Shown here one piece after another: positions 1-28,511 of a stretch of 38,716 nt of DNA. This stretch comes from Candidatus Limnocylindrales bacterium. Its GTDB lineage: Bacteria; Chloroflexota; Limnocylindria; Limnocylindrales; CSP1-4. The notes beneath the pieces are model-generated. The model did not search any database. It had not been told where the DNA came from and worked only from the letters and a program-made list of their open reading frames with translations. How positions within the stretch are numbered: the stretch's first letter is position 1; each line of letters begins with the position of its first letter. Made by a program: the position numbers and the translations under genes. The stretch spans positions 1 to 38,716 of the forward strand of contig JANWLH010000091.1 in NCBI GenBank assembly GCA_025450915.1. Direction: 5' to 3'.

Positions 1-637
1 GGAGGAGGCCATCGCTCATCACGGCGATGCGGGTGCCCAACGTCATCGCCTCGACCTGGTCGTGGGTGACGTAGACCATCGTGGTGCCGAGGCGCTGGTG
101 GAGCCGGGCGATCTCCGCCCGCGTCTGGACGCGGAGCTTCGCGTCGAGGTTCGAGAGCGGCTCGTCCATCAGGAAGACGGCCGGTTCGCGAACGATCGCC
201 CGGCCCAGGGCGACGCGCTGGCGCTGGCCGCCGGAGAGCTCCTTCGGCTTGCGATCGAGCAGGTTCGAGAGCTGGATCGTGTCCGCCGCTTCCTTGACCC
301 GGCGCTCGATCTCCGGCTTGGGGACCTTGCGCAGCTTCAGGCCGAAGGCGAGGTTGTCGCGGACGGTCATGTGCGGGTAGAGGGCGTAGCTCTGGAAGAC
401 CATCGCGATGTCGCGATCCTTGGGGGCGACGTCGTTGACCACCCTGTCGCCGATCCGGAGCGTGCCCTCGGTGATCTCCTCGAGCCCGGCGATCATGCGC
501 AGGCTGGTGGTCTTGCCACAGCCCGACGGTCCGACCAGGACCATGAACTCGCCGTCGTTGATCCCGAGGTTGAGATCATTGACCGCGAGCACCTCACCGT
601 ATTTCTTGGTGACGTGCTCGAACGTGACCGTAGCCAT
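1..637 (-). CDS. ABC transporter ATP-binding protein, MalK/UgpC type (3' end beyond window)
   Basis: This is the nucleotide-binding subunit of an importer, most likely for sugars or glycerol-phosphate-type substrates, acting on the inner face of the membrane. The visible 212 residues contain Walker A (GPSGCGKTT, about residues 36-44), the Q-loop ([11 protein letters not shown]), the signature [14 protein letters not shown], Walker B plus glutamate ([13 protein letters not shown]), and the H-loop ([12 protein letters not shown]). YALYPHMT and [12 protein letters not shown] are typical of the MalK/UgpC/MsmK group. The C-terminal regulatory domain lies outside the window. The ATG at 637 is supported by AGGAGG seven bases upstream. 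No permease or binding protein for this transporter lies in the window, so the substrate is unknown. Confidence 0.93.
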
Positions 638-655
638 GACACAGCCTCCTGTCCG
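638..655 (-). promoter_or_regulatory. Shine-Dalgarno site of the ABC ATPase
   Basis: On the minus strand AGGAGG lies seven bases before the ATG at 637. A possible -10 box (TACGAT, plus-strand 736-741) lies about 100 bases upstream, but its -35 match is poor. Confidence 0.6.
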
Positions 656-845
656 GCGGCCCTGCGCGGGTCCATGCATCCGGCCACCTGGGTGGACTCG
701 GACGGACCCCGTACGCGTTCCGACGGATTGGCGGCATCGTACATCCCGGGTGGCCGCTGGAACCGGCCCTTTTCGGGGCTGGGTCCCGTTGCCTGGCGTC
801 CCCGGTCCCGGCTGCGGCCGCGGCCGTGGCGGCCGGCGGCTGGGA

Positions 846-22320: not shown

Positions 22321-23217
22321 ATGCTCTCCCGATTCTCCGCCTTCGGCGTCTCCGCCGTCGCCGATACGCGCGACGAGGCGGCCCGGATCAACGATCGCGG
22401 CCTGTACGGGCCTGAGAGCCAGGCCTGGCAGCTGAATCGCGAGGCGACCCTGCTCCTGGGGGCCGGCCCGCGGGCGCTCCTGATGCAGATTGCCCACCCT
22501 CTCGTTGCCGCGGGGGTGTCAGCGCACAGCAACTTCCGCGAGGATCCGTGGCAGAGGCTGCGGGCAACCCTCCGGAGCTACCTCACGATCATCTACGGGA
22601 CGACGACCGATGCCCGCGCCGAGATCGCCCGGCTCAACCGGCTCCACCGCTCGATCAGCGGGCCGGGCTATCGGGCGCGGGATCCCGAGCTCTCGTTGTG
22701 GGTCCACGCCACGCTGATCGACGCGACCCTGGTCGCCCACGACCGCTGGATCGCCCGACTGGGTCACGCCCGGAGGGCCGGGTTCTACGCGGAAACGCTG
22801 CCGATCGCCCGCGCCTTCGGGGTCCCCGCCACGCTCCTGCCGCGGGACATCGCCGCGTTCGACGCCTACCTCGAGCGAATGATCGCGCCAGACGGCCCGG
22901 TCCACGTTGGTCCGATCGCCCGGGAGCTCGCGGCGTCGATCCTGCGACCGCCGCTTGGACCGCTCCACCCGATCCTGGCCGGGATTCCTGGCGAGCTCTA
23001 CGGGTGGATCTTCTGGCCGGCGATCGAGCTCCTGCCCGGGCCAATTCGAGCCGGCTACGGGCTGGCCTGGGGGCCCCGGCAGCGAGCGATCTCGGCTTGG
23101 CTGACGGCCGGATTCCGGGCCTGGCGGCCCCTGCTGCCGGTCGCCTTCCGAACGATGCCGTGGGCGCTCGAGGCGGACGCCCGGATCGCATCCGGCGCGG
23201 GCGCCGATTCGCGATGA
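22321..23217 (+). CDS. DUF2236 / MpaB-family oxygenase-like protein
   Basis: The 298-residue protein matches the DUF2236 family, which includes the fungal MpaB oxygenase and, more distantly, the latex-clearing haem oxygenases. Recognisable parts are ALLMQIAHPLVAAGVSAHSNF (histidines of the putative haem or metal site), DPWQRLRATLRSYLTIIYGT, LSLWVHATLIDATLVAHDRW, and YLERMIAPDGPVHVGPIARELA. The physiological substrate of bacterial members is mostly unknown. The stop codon overlaps the ATG of the FGGY kinase (ATGA), suggesting co-translation. The start at 22321 gives a leaderless transcript. Confidence 0.85.
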   Translation: MLSRFSAFGVSAVADTRDEAARINDRGLYGPESQAWQLNREATLLLGAGPRALLMQIAHPLVAAGVSAHSNFREDPWQRLRATLRSYLTIIYGTTTDARAEIARLNRLHRSISGPGYRARDPELSLWVHATLIDATLVAHDRWIARLGHARRAGFYAETLPIARAFGVPATLLPRDIAAFDAYLERMIAPDGPVHVGPIARELAASILRPPLGPLHPILAGIPGELYGWIFWPAIELLPGPIRAGYGLAWGPRQRAISAWLTAGFRAWRPLLPVAFRTMPWALEADARIASGAGADSR

Positions 23218-24683
23218 GCCCCGGTGAGTCGCTGATCCTGGCGATCGACCTCGGGACGACCGAGGTGAAGAGCGGGTTGTTCACGACCGACGGGCGTCTC
23301 GTCCGGCTCGCCCGTGCGGGCTACCCGACGATGAGGCACAACGCCGGGGTCGCCGAGCAGGATCCGGAGAGCTGGTGGGCGGCGATCGCCCGGACGACCC
23401 GGGAGCTGCGCCGCCGCGAATCGGCCGTGATCAGCGCGATCTGCTGCGTCGGCCAGGGCCCGACGCTCGTTCCGACCGATGGTTCCGGCAGTGCCACCGG
23501 TCCGGCCGTGACCTGGCTCGATACCCGGGCGGCGGCGGAGGTCGAGGAGCTGGCCGCGCTCACCGGCCGCTTCAGCTGGGAGCTTGGCGTCCTGCCGGCG
23601 GCGCTGCACCTCGAGCGGCACGCGCCGGAGGCGCTGGGTGCCGTGCGCTGGTACCTCAACGCCTGGGAGGCGATCGCCTGCCGGATGACGGGAATCGCGG
23701 CAGAGACGCGCCTCGCCGGCCAGCTCCGCGCGGATCCCGATGACGTTGCGGGATCGGGGATTCGCCTGGAGCGCCTGCCACCGGTCGTCGCGACCGGCCG
23801 CCGGCTCGGAGAGCTGCGCAATGACCCGGCCAGGGACCTGGGTCTGCCCGCGGGCACGCCGGTCGTTGCGGGCATGGTCGATGCCTACGCGAGCTTCTTC
23901 GGGGCAGGACTGCTCGATGCCGGCGACGCGGTCGACACTGGTGGCACATCGGGCGGCTTCGCGGTGTATGCGGATCGGGCGCTGGCGATCCCGGGCTCGT
24001 TCTGCGCGCCCGCGCCGGTCGACGGCCTGTGGGTCCTGGGCGGGGCGATGAACGCGACGGGCAAGGCCCTCGACTGGCTGGCCGGCGTCGTCGACGGCCG
24101 CGCCGGCATCGACGCCCTCCTCGCCGAGGCCGCCCTCGTGCCGCCGGGCTCGGCGGGGCTCGTCTTCCTGCCGTATCTCGCCGGCGAGCGATCGCCGATC
24201 TGGGATCCCGAAGCCCGCGGCGCCTTCGTCGGCCTGACCCTTGGGCACACCAGGGGCCACCTCGTGCGCGCCGTTGTCGAGGCGGCCGCCCTCGCGTTGC
24301 GCCACGTCATCGGCCCGATCGTCGAGGCCGGCGCGACGGTCAACGAACTGCGGGTCAGTGGCGGACCGGCCCAGAGCCACGCCTGGAATCAGCTCAAGGC
24401 CGACATCACCGGCCTCGTCGTGGCGGTGCCCAGGGTGGCCGAGACCGCCGTGCTTGGCGCGGCCATCGCCGCCGCAGCCGGCATGTCGACGTACCCGGAT
24501 CTTGTTGCGGCGACCCGGGCGATGGTCGAGATCGAACGCCGGCTGCCACCAGACCCTGGTCACAAGGCGGTTTATGACGACGCCTTTGGCGCCTACCTCG
24601 GCCTGTACCCGGCCCTCGCAGGCGCCTTCCACCGGCTGGCCGCCTTCGAACTCGCCAACCGCGACGAAGGAGCGGCAACCTGA
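23214..24683 (+). CDS. FGGY-family carbohydrate kinase (xylulokinase-like)
   Basis: The 489-residue kinase phosphorylates a sugar or polyol with ATP. It has the first phosphate loop LAIDLGTTEVKSGLF, the early substrate-binding segment AEQDPESWWAAI, ICCVGQGPTLVP, the WLDTRA motif, the catalytic aspartate region VVAGMVDAYASFFGAGL, the adenosine segment TGGTSGG, and the C-terminal family signature VSGGPAQSHAWNQLKADITGLVVAVP. The order and length fit FGGY kinases. The AMVDA/WLDTR pattern and the VVAVPRVAETAVLGAA end are closest to the xylulokinase group, but the substrate is unproven. It overlaps the upstream oxygenase gene by four bases, an unusual partnership. Confidence 0.9.
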   Translation: MSPGESLILAIDLGTTEVKSGLFTTDGRLVRLARAGYPTMRHNAGVAEQDPESWWAAIARTTRELRRRESAVISAICCVGQGPTLVPTDGSGSATGPAVTWLDTRAAAEVEELAALTGRFSWELGVLPAALHLERHAPEALGAVRWYLNAWEAIACRMTGIAAETRLAGQLRADPDDVAGSGIRLERLPPVVATGRRLGELRNDPARDLGLPAGTPVVAGMVDAYASFFGAGLLDAGDAVDTGGTSGGFAVYADRALAIPGSFCAPAPVDGLWVLGGAMNATGKALDWLAGVVDGRAGIDALLAEAALVPPGSAGLVFLPYLAGERSPIWDPEARGAFVGLTLGHTRGHLVRAVVEAAALALRHVIGPIVEAGATVNELRVSGGPAQSHAWNQLKADITGLVVAVPRVAETAVLGAAIAAAAGMSTYPDLVAATRAMVEIERRLPPDPGHKAVYDDAFGAYLGLYPALAGAFHRLAAFELANRDEGAAT

Positions 24684-24740: not shown

Positions 24741-24746
24741 CATGTT

Positions 24747-24910
24747 GGCCTTCGGGGCAGGGTGCGATTCCCGACCGGTGGTAGTCCCGGGTCTGTGACC
24801 CGGGGAGCCCACGAGCGGCCCGTCGATCGACGGGTGCCAGCAGATCCGACGGTCGCCGAGCCACGGCGAGCGAGACGGAGCCGACGGTACAGTCCGGATG
24901 GAAGAAGGCC
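24747..24910 (+). ncRNA. FMN riboswitch (RFN element)
   Basis: The conserved blocks of the RFN aptamer are present in order. CTTCGGGGCAGGGTG...ATTCCC begins it, followed by GACCGGTGGTAGTCCC, GAGCCCACGAGCGG, GATCCG, GGAGCCGACGGTACAGTCC and GGATGGAAGAAGG. P1 is a perfect 7-bp stem, GGCCTTC (24747-24753) with GAAGGCC (24904-24910). Internal stems include CCCGGGTC-TGT-GACCCGGG (24786-24804), CCCGTCGATCGACGGG (24819-24834) and the variable stem TCGCCG/CGGCGA. The element binds FMN and normally represses riboflavin synthesis or transport genes. Here the next gene, 78 bases downstream on the same strand, is a substrate-binding lipoprotein. Confidence 0.96.
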
Positions 24911-24914
24911 GTGG

Positions 24915-24987
24915 CGCGACGCGTCCGATGACGTGCCCGCCGCGGTTCGGATGTGCCCCGGAACCTGGACTGAGGTGACGCGGCGCG
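24915..24987 (+). promoter_or_regulatory. Candidate expression platform of the FMN riboswitch
   Basis: CGCGACGCGTC (24915-24925) can pair with GACGCGGCGCG (24977-24987), ten base pairs with one A-G mismatch, ending directly at the ATG (24988). The stem begins just after GAGG (24972-24975), the only visible ribosome-binding site. It would block initiation and suggests translational control. No antisequestor was found, so the link to ligand binding is inference. Confidence 0.4.
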
Positions 24988-26697
24988 ATGATCGATCCGA
25001 ACTCTCCTTCCAGCCGACACGTTCGTCGCGCCGAGCGCGGGCGTGGCCTCCTGCCGGTCCTGGCGGTGATCGTCGTGATCCTCGTCGCGGCCTGCGGGCC
25101 AGCCGCGTCGACCTCGGCGCCCGGCAGCCCGAGCGCGGGTGCGTCGGCATCGCCCGGCGCGAGCGCGGGCGGCCCGACCGGCACGCTGACCGTCGGCCTG
25201 TCGGCCGATGCCGAGTCGATGGACCCCTATCGCGTCTACCAGAACGCCGGCTTCTCGGTGATGTACGCGATCTTCGATACGCTCGTCACGATCGCTCCGG
25301 ACGGCTCACTGGGCCCCGGCCTGGCCGACTCGTGGACATCACCGGACGCGAAGACCCTCGAGCTCAAGCTCCACCCCGGGGTCAAGTTCCAGGATGGCGA
25401 GCCGTTCGACGCCGCCGCGGTGCGCTTCTCGCTCTACCGGATCGCCGACATCGACCCGAGCACGAACAAGCCCTACCCGGTCGGTGACACCCACCGCCTC
25501 AACTCGGCATTCGCCTCGAACTTCGCCTCGCTCGCCAGCGTCGAGGTCGTCGACCCGCTGACGGTGAAGCTGCACTTGAACGCACCGGACTCGGGCCTGC
25601 TCGGCAACCTTGGGACGCTCCAGATGCTGCCGCCCCAGTACTACGCCCAGGTCGGTGATGCCGGCTTCGCCCTGAAGCCCGTTGGGACGGGTCCGTTCAG
25701 GTTCGTCGAGTGGGTCAAGGACGACCACATCACCCTCGAGGCGAACCCCGACTACTGGAAGAGCCCGCGGGGCCAGCCTCTCGTCGCCAAGGTGATCTTC
25801 CGGCCCATCCCCGATGCGGCGACCCGGATCAGCGAGCTGGCCACCGGCGGGATCCAGATCATGGAGGACCTGCCGCCCGACCAGGCTGCCCAGGTGAAGG
25901 CTGCCGGTGACCAGGCGGTCTACCTTTCCGACGCTCATTCGCTGGCCATTTGGCTCACGACCGACAAGGGCGGCAACCTGGCCAAGAACCCGGGCGACCA
26001 GGCGACCGCGATCACCGCCCTCGCGAACCCCGCTGTGCGCCGGGCGCTGAACATGGCGATCGACCGCAAGACCCTGGTCTCGACCCTCCTCGACGGTTAC
26101 GGCGAGCCGATGAACTCGCTCTGGGTCAGCGGCGACAAGGGCTTCGACCCCAGCCTGCCGGCGATCCCGTTCGACCCGGTCCAGGCCCGCGCCGTCCTCG
26201 CCCAACAGGGCTATCCGAACGGCTTCGCGGTCAACATGGATGTCTGTACCTGCGACAGCTCGGCGATCTATGAGGCGGTGGTGGCGATGCTCGCCAATGT
26301 CGGCGTCCAGGTCACCCTCAAGCCCGCCGAGCTGAACCAGTTCAACGATGCCTGGGGCAAGGGCGACACCAACCCGATGCGCGGCGCCCGCCTTGGATTC
26401 CCGGTTGACCCGAACACGGAGCTCTTCCTGTGGGTCGATTCCAACGGCTACCTCAGCCGGTACAGAAATCCGGCGGTCGATGCCCTGATCAACCAGCAGG
26501 CTGGCCTGCCGACCGACGACTACGGTCCTGCCCGGGTCGCGATCCTCCGCCAGATCGCGGTCGATGCCCAGCAGGATCCGCCGGCAATCTTCCTCGTCGG
26601 CCAGGGCAGCCTGTACGGCACCGTTGGCAAGGGGCTCACCTGGCAGCCCAACGTGCAGGGCTACATCCCGGTCGTGAACGTCAGCTACAACCCCTGA
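24988..26697 (+). CDS. ABC substrate-binding lipoprotein, family 5 (DppA/OppA/NikA-like), under FMN riboswitch
   Basis: The 569-residue protein is a lipid-anchored solute-binding protein. A signal ends in the lipobox VAAC at about residues 33-36, followed by a Ser/Gly/Pro/Ala-rich spacer (37-65). The mature part has the SBP_bac_5 hallmarks: GTLTVGLSADAESMDPYRV, FDTLVTIAPDGSLGPGLADSW, LKLHPGVKFQDGEPFDAAAVRFSLYR, KPVGTGPFRFVEWVKDDHITLEANPDYW, and ALNMAIDRKTLVSTLLDGYGEP. Family members bind peptides, nickel, opines, haem or other small molecules. The riboswitch directly upstream implies control by flavin level, so riboflavin or a flavin derivative is the likely cargo by inference. No permease or ATPase gene is adjacent; the next genes are pckA and mdh. 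Confidence 0.93.
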   Translation: MIDPNSPSSRHVRRAERGRGLLPVLAVIVVILVAACGPAASTSAPGSPSAGASASPGASAGGPTGTLTVGLSADAESMDPYRVYQNAGFSVMYAIFDTLVTIAPDGSLGPGLADSWTSPDAKTLELKLHPGVKFQDGEPFDAAAVRFSLYRIADIDPSTNKPYPVGDTHRLNSAFASNFASLASVEVVDPLTVKLHLNAPDSGLLGNLGTLQMLPPQYYAQVGDAGFALKPVGTGPFRFVEWVKDDHITLEANPDYWKSPRGQPLVAKVIFRPIPDAATRISELATGGIQIMEDLPPDQAAQVKAAGDQAVYLSDAHSLAIWLTTDKGGNLAKNPGDQATAITALANPAVRRALNMAIDRKTLVSTLLDGYGEPMNSLWVSGDKGFDPSLPAIPFDPVQARAVLAQQGYPNGFAVNMDVCTCDSSAIYEAVVAMLANVGVQVTLKPAELNQFNDAWGKGDTNPMRGARLGFPVDPNTELFLWVDSNGYLSRYRNPAVDALINQQAGLPTDDYGPARVAILRQIAVDAQQDPPAIFLVGQGSLYGTVGKGLTWQPNVQGYIPVVNVSYNP

Positions 26698-26839: not shown

Positions 26840-26921
26840 CCGACGTACGCGCGGCCGGTCAACCACCGCCGATGCTGGATCGGCCTGGTTGATGCGGGCT
26901 GCCGCCGAACGGGAGTACATC

Positions 26922-28511
26922 GTGAGTCCCACCCAGTCATCCGCCCGGGCCTCGGCGTCGATCGGCAGCGTGCTGCGGGCGAACCTGTCCACGGCCGAGC
27001 TCTACGAGGACGCGATCCGGGCTGGTGAGGGCCTGCTGGCCGCGGAGGGCCCGCTCGTCGTCCGGACCGGCCGCCACACGGGACGCTCGCCGGAGGACAA
27101 GTTCATCGTCCGCGAGCCCTCGAGCGAGGCCAAGATCGGCTGGGGGGCGGTCAATCGACCGATCTCCGAGGAGCACTACGAGCGGCTGCGGGCGCGATTG
27201 CTGAGCCACACCAGCCACCGCCCGATCTACGCCCAGGACCTGTTCATCGGCGCCGCGCTCGAGCACCGCCGGTCGTTGCGGGTCTACACGGAGACGGCCT
27301 GGGCGAGCATCTTCGCCCGGAATCTGTTCCGCCGGCCGTCGGCCGTCGAGCTCGCCACGTTCGCGCCGAACTTCACGATCATCAACGTCCCGTCGTTCAA
27401 GGCCGACCCCGCGACCGAGGGCACCCGCACCGAGACGGCCATCCTCCTCCACCTCCGGCGGATGGAGATCATCATCGTCGGCACCGAGTACGCCGGCGAG
27501 ATCAAGAAGGGCGCCTTCACGGTCATGAACTACCTCATGCCCGAAGAGGGGATCCTGCCGATGCACTCGGCGATCAATGTCGGGGTGGCCGGCGATCCGG
27601 CGATCTTCTTCGGCCTCTCCGGGACCGGCAAGACCACCCTGTCGGCCGATCCCGAGCGAAGCCTGATCGGCGACGACGAGCACGGCTGGGGCGATGACGG
27701 GGTCTTCAATTTCGAGGGCGGCTGCTACGCGAAGACGATCCGCCTCTCGCCGATGTACGAGCCCGACATCTTCCAGACGACCCGTCGCTTCGGGACGATC
27801 CTCGAGAATGTCGACCTCGACCCGGCCAGCCGGGAGCTCGACCTCGATTCCGATCGGTTCACGGAGAACACCCGCGGTGCGTACCCGCTCGAATTCATCG
27901 GCAACGCGGATCCGACCGGGATCGCCGGCCAGCCGCGCAGTGTCGTCCTTCTGACCGCCGACGCGTTCGGCGTCCTGCCCCCGATCGCCCGGCTGACCCA
28001 CGACCAGGCCGCCTACCACTTCCTGAGTGGCTACACCGCCAAGCTGGCCGGCACCGAGATCGGGGTCAAGGAGCCCAAGGCAACGTTCTCGACCTGCTTC
28101 GGGGCGCCATTCATGCCTCGCCCGCCGGCCGAGTACGCCCGCCTCCTCGTCGAGCGCCTGGCACGCTGGGACGTGCCTGCCTGGCTCGTGAACACCGGCT
28201 GGACCGGTGGTCCGTACGGCACCGGCGAGCGGATGAACATCGGCCACACCCGGGCGATGGTCCGGGCCGCGCTCAATGGCCTGCTCGATGACGTCCAGAT
28301 GAACATCGACGCGCGCTTCGGCCTGGCCGTGCCGGCGACCTGCCCGGACGTGCCGTCCGAGTTCCTCCAGCCGCGCAATACCTGGCAGGACCGCGACGCG
28401 TACGATCGTGCGGCGGCGAAGCTGGCCCGGATGTTCGCCGAGAACTTCGAGGCCTACGCCGGCGAGGTCGGACCGGGGATCCGCTCGGCCGGGCCGCGGA
28501 TCGACGACTGA
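26922..28511 (+). CDS. pckA: Phosphoenolpyruvate carboxykinase (ATP)
   Basis: The enzyme converts oxaloacetate and ATP to phosphoenolpyruvate, CO2 and ADP, the first committed step of gluconeogenesis, in the cytosol. The 529-residue length fits the ATP-dependent type. The sequence shows [18 protein letters not shown] (substrate loop), [29 protein letters not shown] (metal-binding lysine region), the phosphate loop [11 protein letters not shown] (about 231-241), IGDDEHGW and [10 protein letters not shown], and the late [15 protein letters not shown]. The GTG at 26922 with GGGAG eight bases upstream gives the usual N-terminus. It is followed 43 bases later by malate dehydrogenase, which supplies oxaloacetate. 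Confidence 0.97.

Follow-up and report, generated by a model that had tools for sequence, protein, structure and literature searches.

What is controlled by an FMN riboswitch whose next gene encodes a substrate-binding protein (SBP) of the DppA/OppA type, and which enzyme would convert riboflavin to FMN in a bacterium that carries it? The question is raised by contig JANWLH010000091.1 (GCA_025450915.1; 38,716 nt, hereinafter referred to as the window) from Candidatus Limnocylindrales bacterium, an uncultured member of Chloroflexota with a genome of 2.48 Mb that is 70% complete. Questions concerning whole genomes were answered by searches of the family. The comparison set comprised 107 genomes of the family, four of them belonging to the genus of the window (hereinafter the genus), and 177 genomes of the class; most of the genomes surveyed were incomplete metagenome bins. 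Genes at neighbouring loci were called from a simple codon-position GC score, with which frame errors are possible, and the neighbouring genes named here were verified by BLAST, Pfam, or reading.

The riboswitch and the binding protein behind it

An FMN riboswitch aptamer (RFN element, RF00050) was identified by covariance-model match at 24744-24913 (+). The match spanned the whole model (positions 1-138 of 138) and scored 82.0 bits (gathering score, 66.2 bits; E 2.7e-17), in agreement with the first-pass annotation of this DNA, which had described the element as complete. No second RFN element was recovered from this genome, which is 70% complete. A promoter of its own, which had also been assigned to the element, was not recovered: a kinase gene ends 60 nt upstream of the aptamer, and a consensus scan of the leader for sigma-70 promoters gave none, a result that carries little weight given the high GC content of the genome. 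No intrinsic terminator was found in the leader. Elsewhere in the window, a malK-III candidate RNA (RF03009) was detected at 635-728 (-), with a score of 74 bits that was above the gathering score.

The gene behind the aptamer (24988-26697, +) encodes an SBP_bac_5 lipoprotein of 569 aa (PF00496, 260 bits) with a lipobox-like VAAC (...VILVAACG), and is preceded by a ribosome-binding site, GAGGTGA, at 24972-24978. The gap between the RFN element and the SBP gene has no room for another gene, and the gene that follows encodes PEP carboxykinase (26889-28511), so the SBP gene is the only one clearly served by the riboswitch. Both points, the family-5 lipoprotein of DppA/OppA type and its being the only gene served, had been read correctly at first pass. 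The best relatives of the protein among NCBIfam and PDB entries were of the GsiB, Opp4A, and NikA types, with scores well under the curated cut-offs, and structure prediction from four sequences reached a pLDDT of 36. No paper found in a literature search joined SBP_bac_5 with riboflavin.

Fold prediction placed a hairpin at 24963-24978 (+), in which ACCT at 24963-24966 would pair with the Shine-Dalgarno sequence AGGT at 24973-24976. The hairpin is predicted in all four relatives; it is a candidate expression platform and suggests that the riboswitch may act at the level of translation. Searching related genomes for RFN elements upstream of SBP_bac_5 genes, as the first-pass annotation had suggested, recovered the pair in 4/4 genomes of the genus, each of which has exactly one RFN element with the SBP gene directly behind it. 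The SBPs of the congeners showed 79-85% protein identity to that of the window (one copy was split in the BLAST match), and the SBP gene began 75-78 nt behind the aptamer in all four genomes, with 74 nt lying between the two in the window. Across the four congeners, the aptamer helices showed compensatory changes, and the core was conserved.

RFN elements were identified in 41/107 genomes of the family with the covariance model; a home-made regular expression was dropped, as it recovered 10/31 controls. In other genera, the genes downstream of the element encoded an ABC ATPase, a permease, and an NMT1/THI5-like receptor (ribZXY), or alternatively were ribD-ribE-ribBA-ribH or RibY alone. Elsewhere in the family the element thus preceded only genes for riboflavin synthesis or of RibXYZ type, where the downstream gene was readable. 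The receptor is called RibY here on the basis of its RFN linkage and its Pfam NMT1 domain (PF09084), and the statement at first pass that RibY is NMT1/THI5-like and not SBP_bac_5 proved right for these relatives. At three loci (L070, L073, and L075, in G035, G031, and G033), RibY alone stands directly behind the element, and neither an ATPase nor a permease gene intervenes; an orphan receptor under an FMN riboswitch is therefore not unique to the genus of the window.

Riboflavin supply and a candidate permease

RibH (PF00885) was found in 9/107 genomes of the family and in 0/4 of the genus, a set that includes two genomes of 92% completeness. The RibY profile gave strong matches in about half of the family; in the genus, it recovered no true RibY and one weak paralogue (in G081). 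By these searches for RibH and RibY, the locus in the window is therefore the only candidate riboflavin source or importer recognised in the genus.

The sole orthologue of the SBP outside the genus (48% identity) was found in G022, of genus g7, in the gene order regulator with a sugar-binding-type domain, FGGY kinase, SBP, DppB, DppC, and FAD-dependent oxidoreductase; the kinase and SBP genes overlap by ATGA. According to the first-pass annotation, homologues lacking the RFN element in relatives would speak against control of flavin uptake by the riboswitch. The homologue in G022 has no detectable RFN element, and to this extent the objection stands; its gene nevertheless lies between the same kinase and DppBC.

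In 4/4 genomes of the genus, an orthologous DppB (61-65%) is encoded at a separate locus and is followed by DppC, which bears out the earlier expectation that the permease is encoded elsewhere. In the genome of the window, the DppB gene is located at G000:C105:889-1791 (-), and DppC is cut by the contig end. Neither an SBP nor an ATPase gene was present beside the unlinked DppB in the stretches read in the four genomes, and no dppDF-type ATPase gene was adjacent to the SBP gene. From the gene order in G022 we infer that the unlinked DppBC is the likely partner to which the SBP is physically paired. The SBP probably captures riboflavin, and the best reading of these loci is riboflavin uptake by a peptide-type ABC system.

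The FGGY kinase and the canonical flavokinase

The gene directly upstream of the riboswitch (23214-24683, +) encodes an FGGY-family kinase (PF00370, 89 bits; PF02782, 123 bits), proposed here to be a riboflavin kinase. This kinase, overlooked at first pass, is the more widespread and the more surprising partner of the flavin loci. Its start is overlapped by ATGA with a gene for an MpaB/Lcp-type oxygenase (PF09995; 22315-23217, +), homologues of which occur at the same place in three congeners.

The kinase clade was found in 48/107 genomes of the family (alignment A2), and in 36 of these 48 it directly precedes an RFN element or RibY in the same orientation. The distance was mostly 28-590 nt to the RFN element and about 1.6-1.8 kb to RibY where no RFN element was found. 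Among the remaining 12 genomes, the kinase stands beside SBP-DppBC in G022 and beside an ABC ATPase at a contig end in G025, and most of the other kinases are on different contigs from the uptake locus. Since the gene precedes the RFN element, the kinase escapes control by the riboswitch, in keeping with an enzyme for which the need is constant. At loci lacking an RFN element, a regulator of SorC-like type is encoded directly upstream of the kinase (L113:6582-7571, L300:3868-4878, L294:1689-2639 (-), and L302:4768-5760). Its Sugar-bind domain was tested in G022 and G004, and the regulators of G025 and G097 were alike by eye; FMN or riboflavin may be the effector. LolD-FtsX-BioY genes are located upstream of the kinase in the genus and in g11, and FtsX-BioY in g4; given this common context, the locus is old, with the SBP at the position held by RibX-RibY in g4.

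When contigs were scanned with the kinase alignment, the matches listed were mostly remote FGGY paralogues (28-39%). Covariance scans at 46 of the listed FGGY loci, three of them of close clade members, detected no FMN riboswitch at the gathering score, and the flavin linkage therefore looks specific to the clade. A 'carbohydrate kinase' under an FMN riboswitch has been described in Clostridium ljungdahlii (CLJU_c14910), its kinase family not being stated (PMC4418817). In a literature search, FGGY kinases were not joined with riboflavin kinase or flavokinase in the sense proposed here.

No cell can convert riboflavin to FMN without a riboflavin kinase, and bacteria are generally considered to use a single enzyme fold for this step. 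The corresponding flavokinase domain (PF01687) was found in only 16/107 genomes of the family and was missing in 91/107, in a search that was positive in ten of ten bacterial controls; a genome-wide domain search recovered none in the genus, where the C-terminus of RibF is without GxPTAN and LExHL. The FAD synthetase domain (PF06574) was present in 99/107 genomes of the family and in 34/34 good genomes. All 17 PF01687-negative RibF proteins of the family that were read (17/17) have kept the FAD-synthetase motif and lost both GxPTAN and LExHL, and in G063 the whole flavokinase domain is gone, whereas both motifs are present in the PF01687-positive RibF proteins read (G106, G066, and G076). Second RibF-like paralogues with a broken PTAN motif were observed in family f4 (L307, G142:C83; L308, G149:C57). 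An archaeal-type, CTP-dependent riboflavin kinase (PF01982) was ruled out as a substitute, as it was found in 0/177 genomes of the class, with four archaeal controls positive.

In none of the 107 genomes of the family do PF01687 and the FGGY clade occur together. This mutual exclusion gave Fisher p values of 4e-5 by genome and 0.016 by genus, and of 0.006 by genus among carriers of an uptake locus, relatedness not being fully corrected in any of these values. The main weakness of the proposal lies in the 43 genomes of the family with neither PF01687 nor the FGGY clade, mostly of g6, g13, and part of g25, in which riboflavin must be phosphorylated by a further enzyme or by whatever activity the degenerate domain retains. 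For example, G018 (L171) and G036 (L172) have a degenerate RibF kinase domain and neither kinase, and the rib operon of G018, which is under an RFN element, is complete. Class genomes G107-G125 likewise appear in neither kinase list.

Outside the family, three strong matches to the FGGY clade were found among the 177 class genomes. In G160 (family f5; 669 bits), the kinase gene is followed by an RFN element (76.8 bits) and by genes for an ATPase, a permease, and an NMT1 receptor. PF01687 was not matched in G160, although 14 genomes of f5 have it; as the genome is 70% complete, this absence is weak. In G141 (family f4), genes for an EamA transporter, the FGGY kinase, ribD, ribE, ribBA, and ribH are consecutive, and the RibF motif reads GYPTVS in place of GYPTAN. 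In G152 (f4), an FGGY relative adjoins an NMT1-like receptor and the flavokinase is intact; this coexistence counts against the proposal.

Phylogenetic analysis together with 76 other FGGY kinases placed all flavin-linked sequences and that of G152 in one group with 99% SH-aLRT support. The predicted structure of the kinase has the FGGY fold (pLDDT 87.6), and the closest solved structures were 3gbt, 3ll3, 3ifr, and 2itm. The catalytic aspartate, D223, is invariant in A2 and aligns to the GGGD aspartate of 2itm. The residues corresponding to MH of E. coli xylulose kinase are GP in the clade, and Trp151 was present in 95% of flavin-linked rows and in 0/76 other FGGY kinases; these positions presumably line the sugar site, as in FGGY structures. 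The groups phosphorylated by FGGY enzymes are hydroxyls of sugars and polyols, and riboflavin kinase targets the hydroxyl at the end of the ribityl chain; phosphorylation of riboflavin by an FGGY enzyme is thus chemically plausible. We regard it as fairly probable that the Chloroflexota FGGY clade is the riboflavin kinase of these bacteria, the third such enzyme of independent origin next to PF01687 flavokinase and the archaeal CTP-dependent type, working with FMN-riboswitch-controlled uptake via RibY or, in the genus, via SBP_bac_5.

A proposed function, its alternatives, and known systems

The locus as a whole can be read as a module that captures and traps riboflavin, composed of the RFN-controlled SBP, the unlinked DppBC, and the FGGY flavin kinase, a reading to which we give somewhat better than an even chance; the ligand, its transport, the kinase activity, and the direction of regulation are the parts that we infer. 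When FMN is sensed by the RFN element, translation of the SBP_bac_5 lipoprotein would be lowered. The lipoprotein would bind riboflavin outside the cell and pass it to the unlinked DppB-DppC-type permease (in the genome of the window, on G000:C105), and an ATPase from some other locus would power import. Out of reach of the riboswitch, the FGGY kinase would then phosphorylate the 5'-OH of the ribityl chain to yield FMN. This step would be needed because RibF keeps its FAD synthetase and has lost the flavokinase active site. In the genus, SBP_bac_5/DppBC may thus substitute for the RibZXY that stands behind the kinase and RFN element in related genera.

An unlikely alternative is that the SBP does import riboflavin and that the substrate of the FGGY kinase is another compound, for example ribitol, ribulose, or ribose derived from the breakdown of flavins. 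Riboflavin kinase activity would then reside elsewhere, for instance in the divergent C-terminus of RibF or in an enzyme that has escaped recognition. FGGY enzymes usually take sugars and polyols, the solved structures closest to the kinase carry xylulose or gluconate kinase annotations, the regulator upstream at RFN-less loci has a sugar-binding-type domain, and some other enzyme must in any case serve the 43 genomes without either kinase. On the other hand, the exclusion between PF01687 and the FGGY clade is complete in the family, RibF has lost GxPTAN and LExHL (in G063, the whole domain), and the kinase of G141 is encoded inside a riboflavin biosynthesis operon, where flavin breakdown is not expected.

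Less probable still is that the SBP carries another solute, such as a peptide, a sugar, or a metal complex, with FMN control tying its uptake to flavin status. This would leave the genus without a recognised riboflavin source, and the same kinase precedes RibZXY and the SBP alike; moreover, readable RFN elements elsewhere in the family precede only riboflavin synthesis or RibXYZ-type genes. Catabolism of the solute through flavoenzymes could nevertheless explain the tie to FMN, a FAD-dependent oxidoreductase being encoded downstream of DppC in G022, and the ligands of SBP_bac_5 proteins are mostly peptides, metals, and opines, with the GsiB, Opp4A, and NikA types closest to this SBP.

Import of FMN, FAD, or another flavin derivative in place of riboflavin is very improbable. 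The large binding cleft of family 5 could accept a ligand of nucleotide size, and a RibF without a working kinase motif would be irrelevant if FMN were imported, but the conserved kinase beside the transporter would be left without a role. In addition, RibXY, which has the same position in relatives, is a riboflavin transporter that, in the case of Chloroflexus, rescues an E. coli riboflavin auxotroph supplied with riboflavin (Caur_0816-0817; PMC4418817). That the riboswitch is left over from a ribZXY operon since lost, with the SBP gene behind it by chance, plausible as such a loss is from the kinase-RFN-ribZXY order of relatives, was rejected as the least probable reading of all, since the RFN-SBP pair is kept in four species with RFN core, spacer length, and Shine-Dalgarno hairpin conserved, and the kinase-SBP pair is present in another genus without an RFN element.

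The riboflavin capture reading, if correct, would have consequences beyond the window. Most genomes of this large uncultured family no longer encode the flavokinase active site, and in about half of those a sugar-kinase relative stands beside genes for flavin uptake or synthesis. The missing enzyme would be named, xylulokinase-like annotations would be corrected in many genomes, and peptide-type ABC importers would join the known riboflavin transporters.

Among known systems, the RibXY/RibXYZ transporters of Chloroflexi are likewise based on an ABC-type receptor under an FMN riboswitch, in the same slot behind the kinase and RFN element. Their RibY is of the NMT1/THI5-like type (PF09084) and is encoded next to the permease and the ATPase, whereas in the window the receptor belongs to PF00496, the DppBC-type permease is unlinked, and PEP carboxykinase follows the SBP. 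The RfuABCD system of spirochaetes also combines a lipoprotein receptor with an ABC permease for riboflavin, and RfuA belongs to a binding-protein family different from SBP_bac_5. With SBPs of the DppA/OppA/GsiB type, the protein of the window shares PF00496 and, in G022, adjacent DppB and DppC (PF00528). It differs from them in its FMN riboswitch, its kinase, its flavin context, and the lack of adjacent dppDF, and it scores far under the curated cut-offs of the named members. The FGGY clade shares both domains, the predicted fold, and D223 with carbohydrate kinases acting on xylulose, gluconate, glycerol, or AI-2 (3ifr, 3gbt, and 2itm), and differs from them in forming a separate group with 99% support, in GP for MH of E. 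coli xylulose kinase, in Trp151, and in the linkage to flavin genes. With the canonical riboflavin kinase (PF01687, the C-terminal domain of RibF), it would have in common the proposed reaction, riboflavin + ATP -> FMN; the folds are unrelated, and genomes of the family that carry the FGGY clade have a degenerate canonical domain or none at all.
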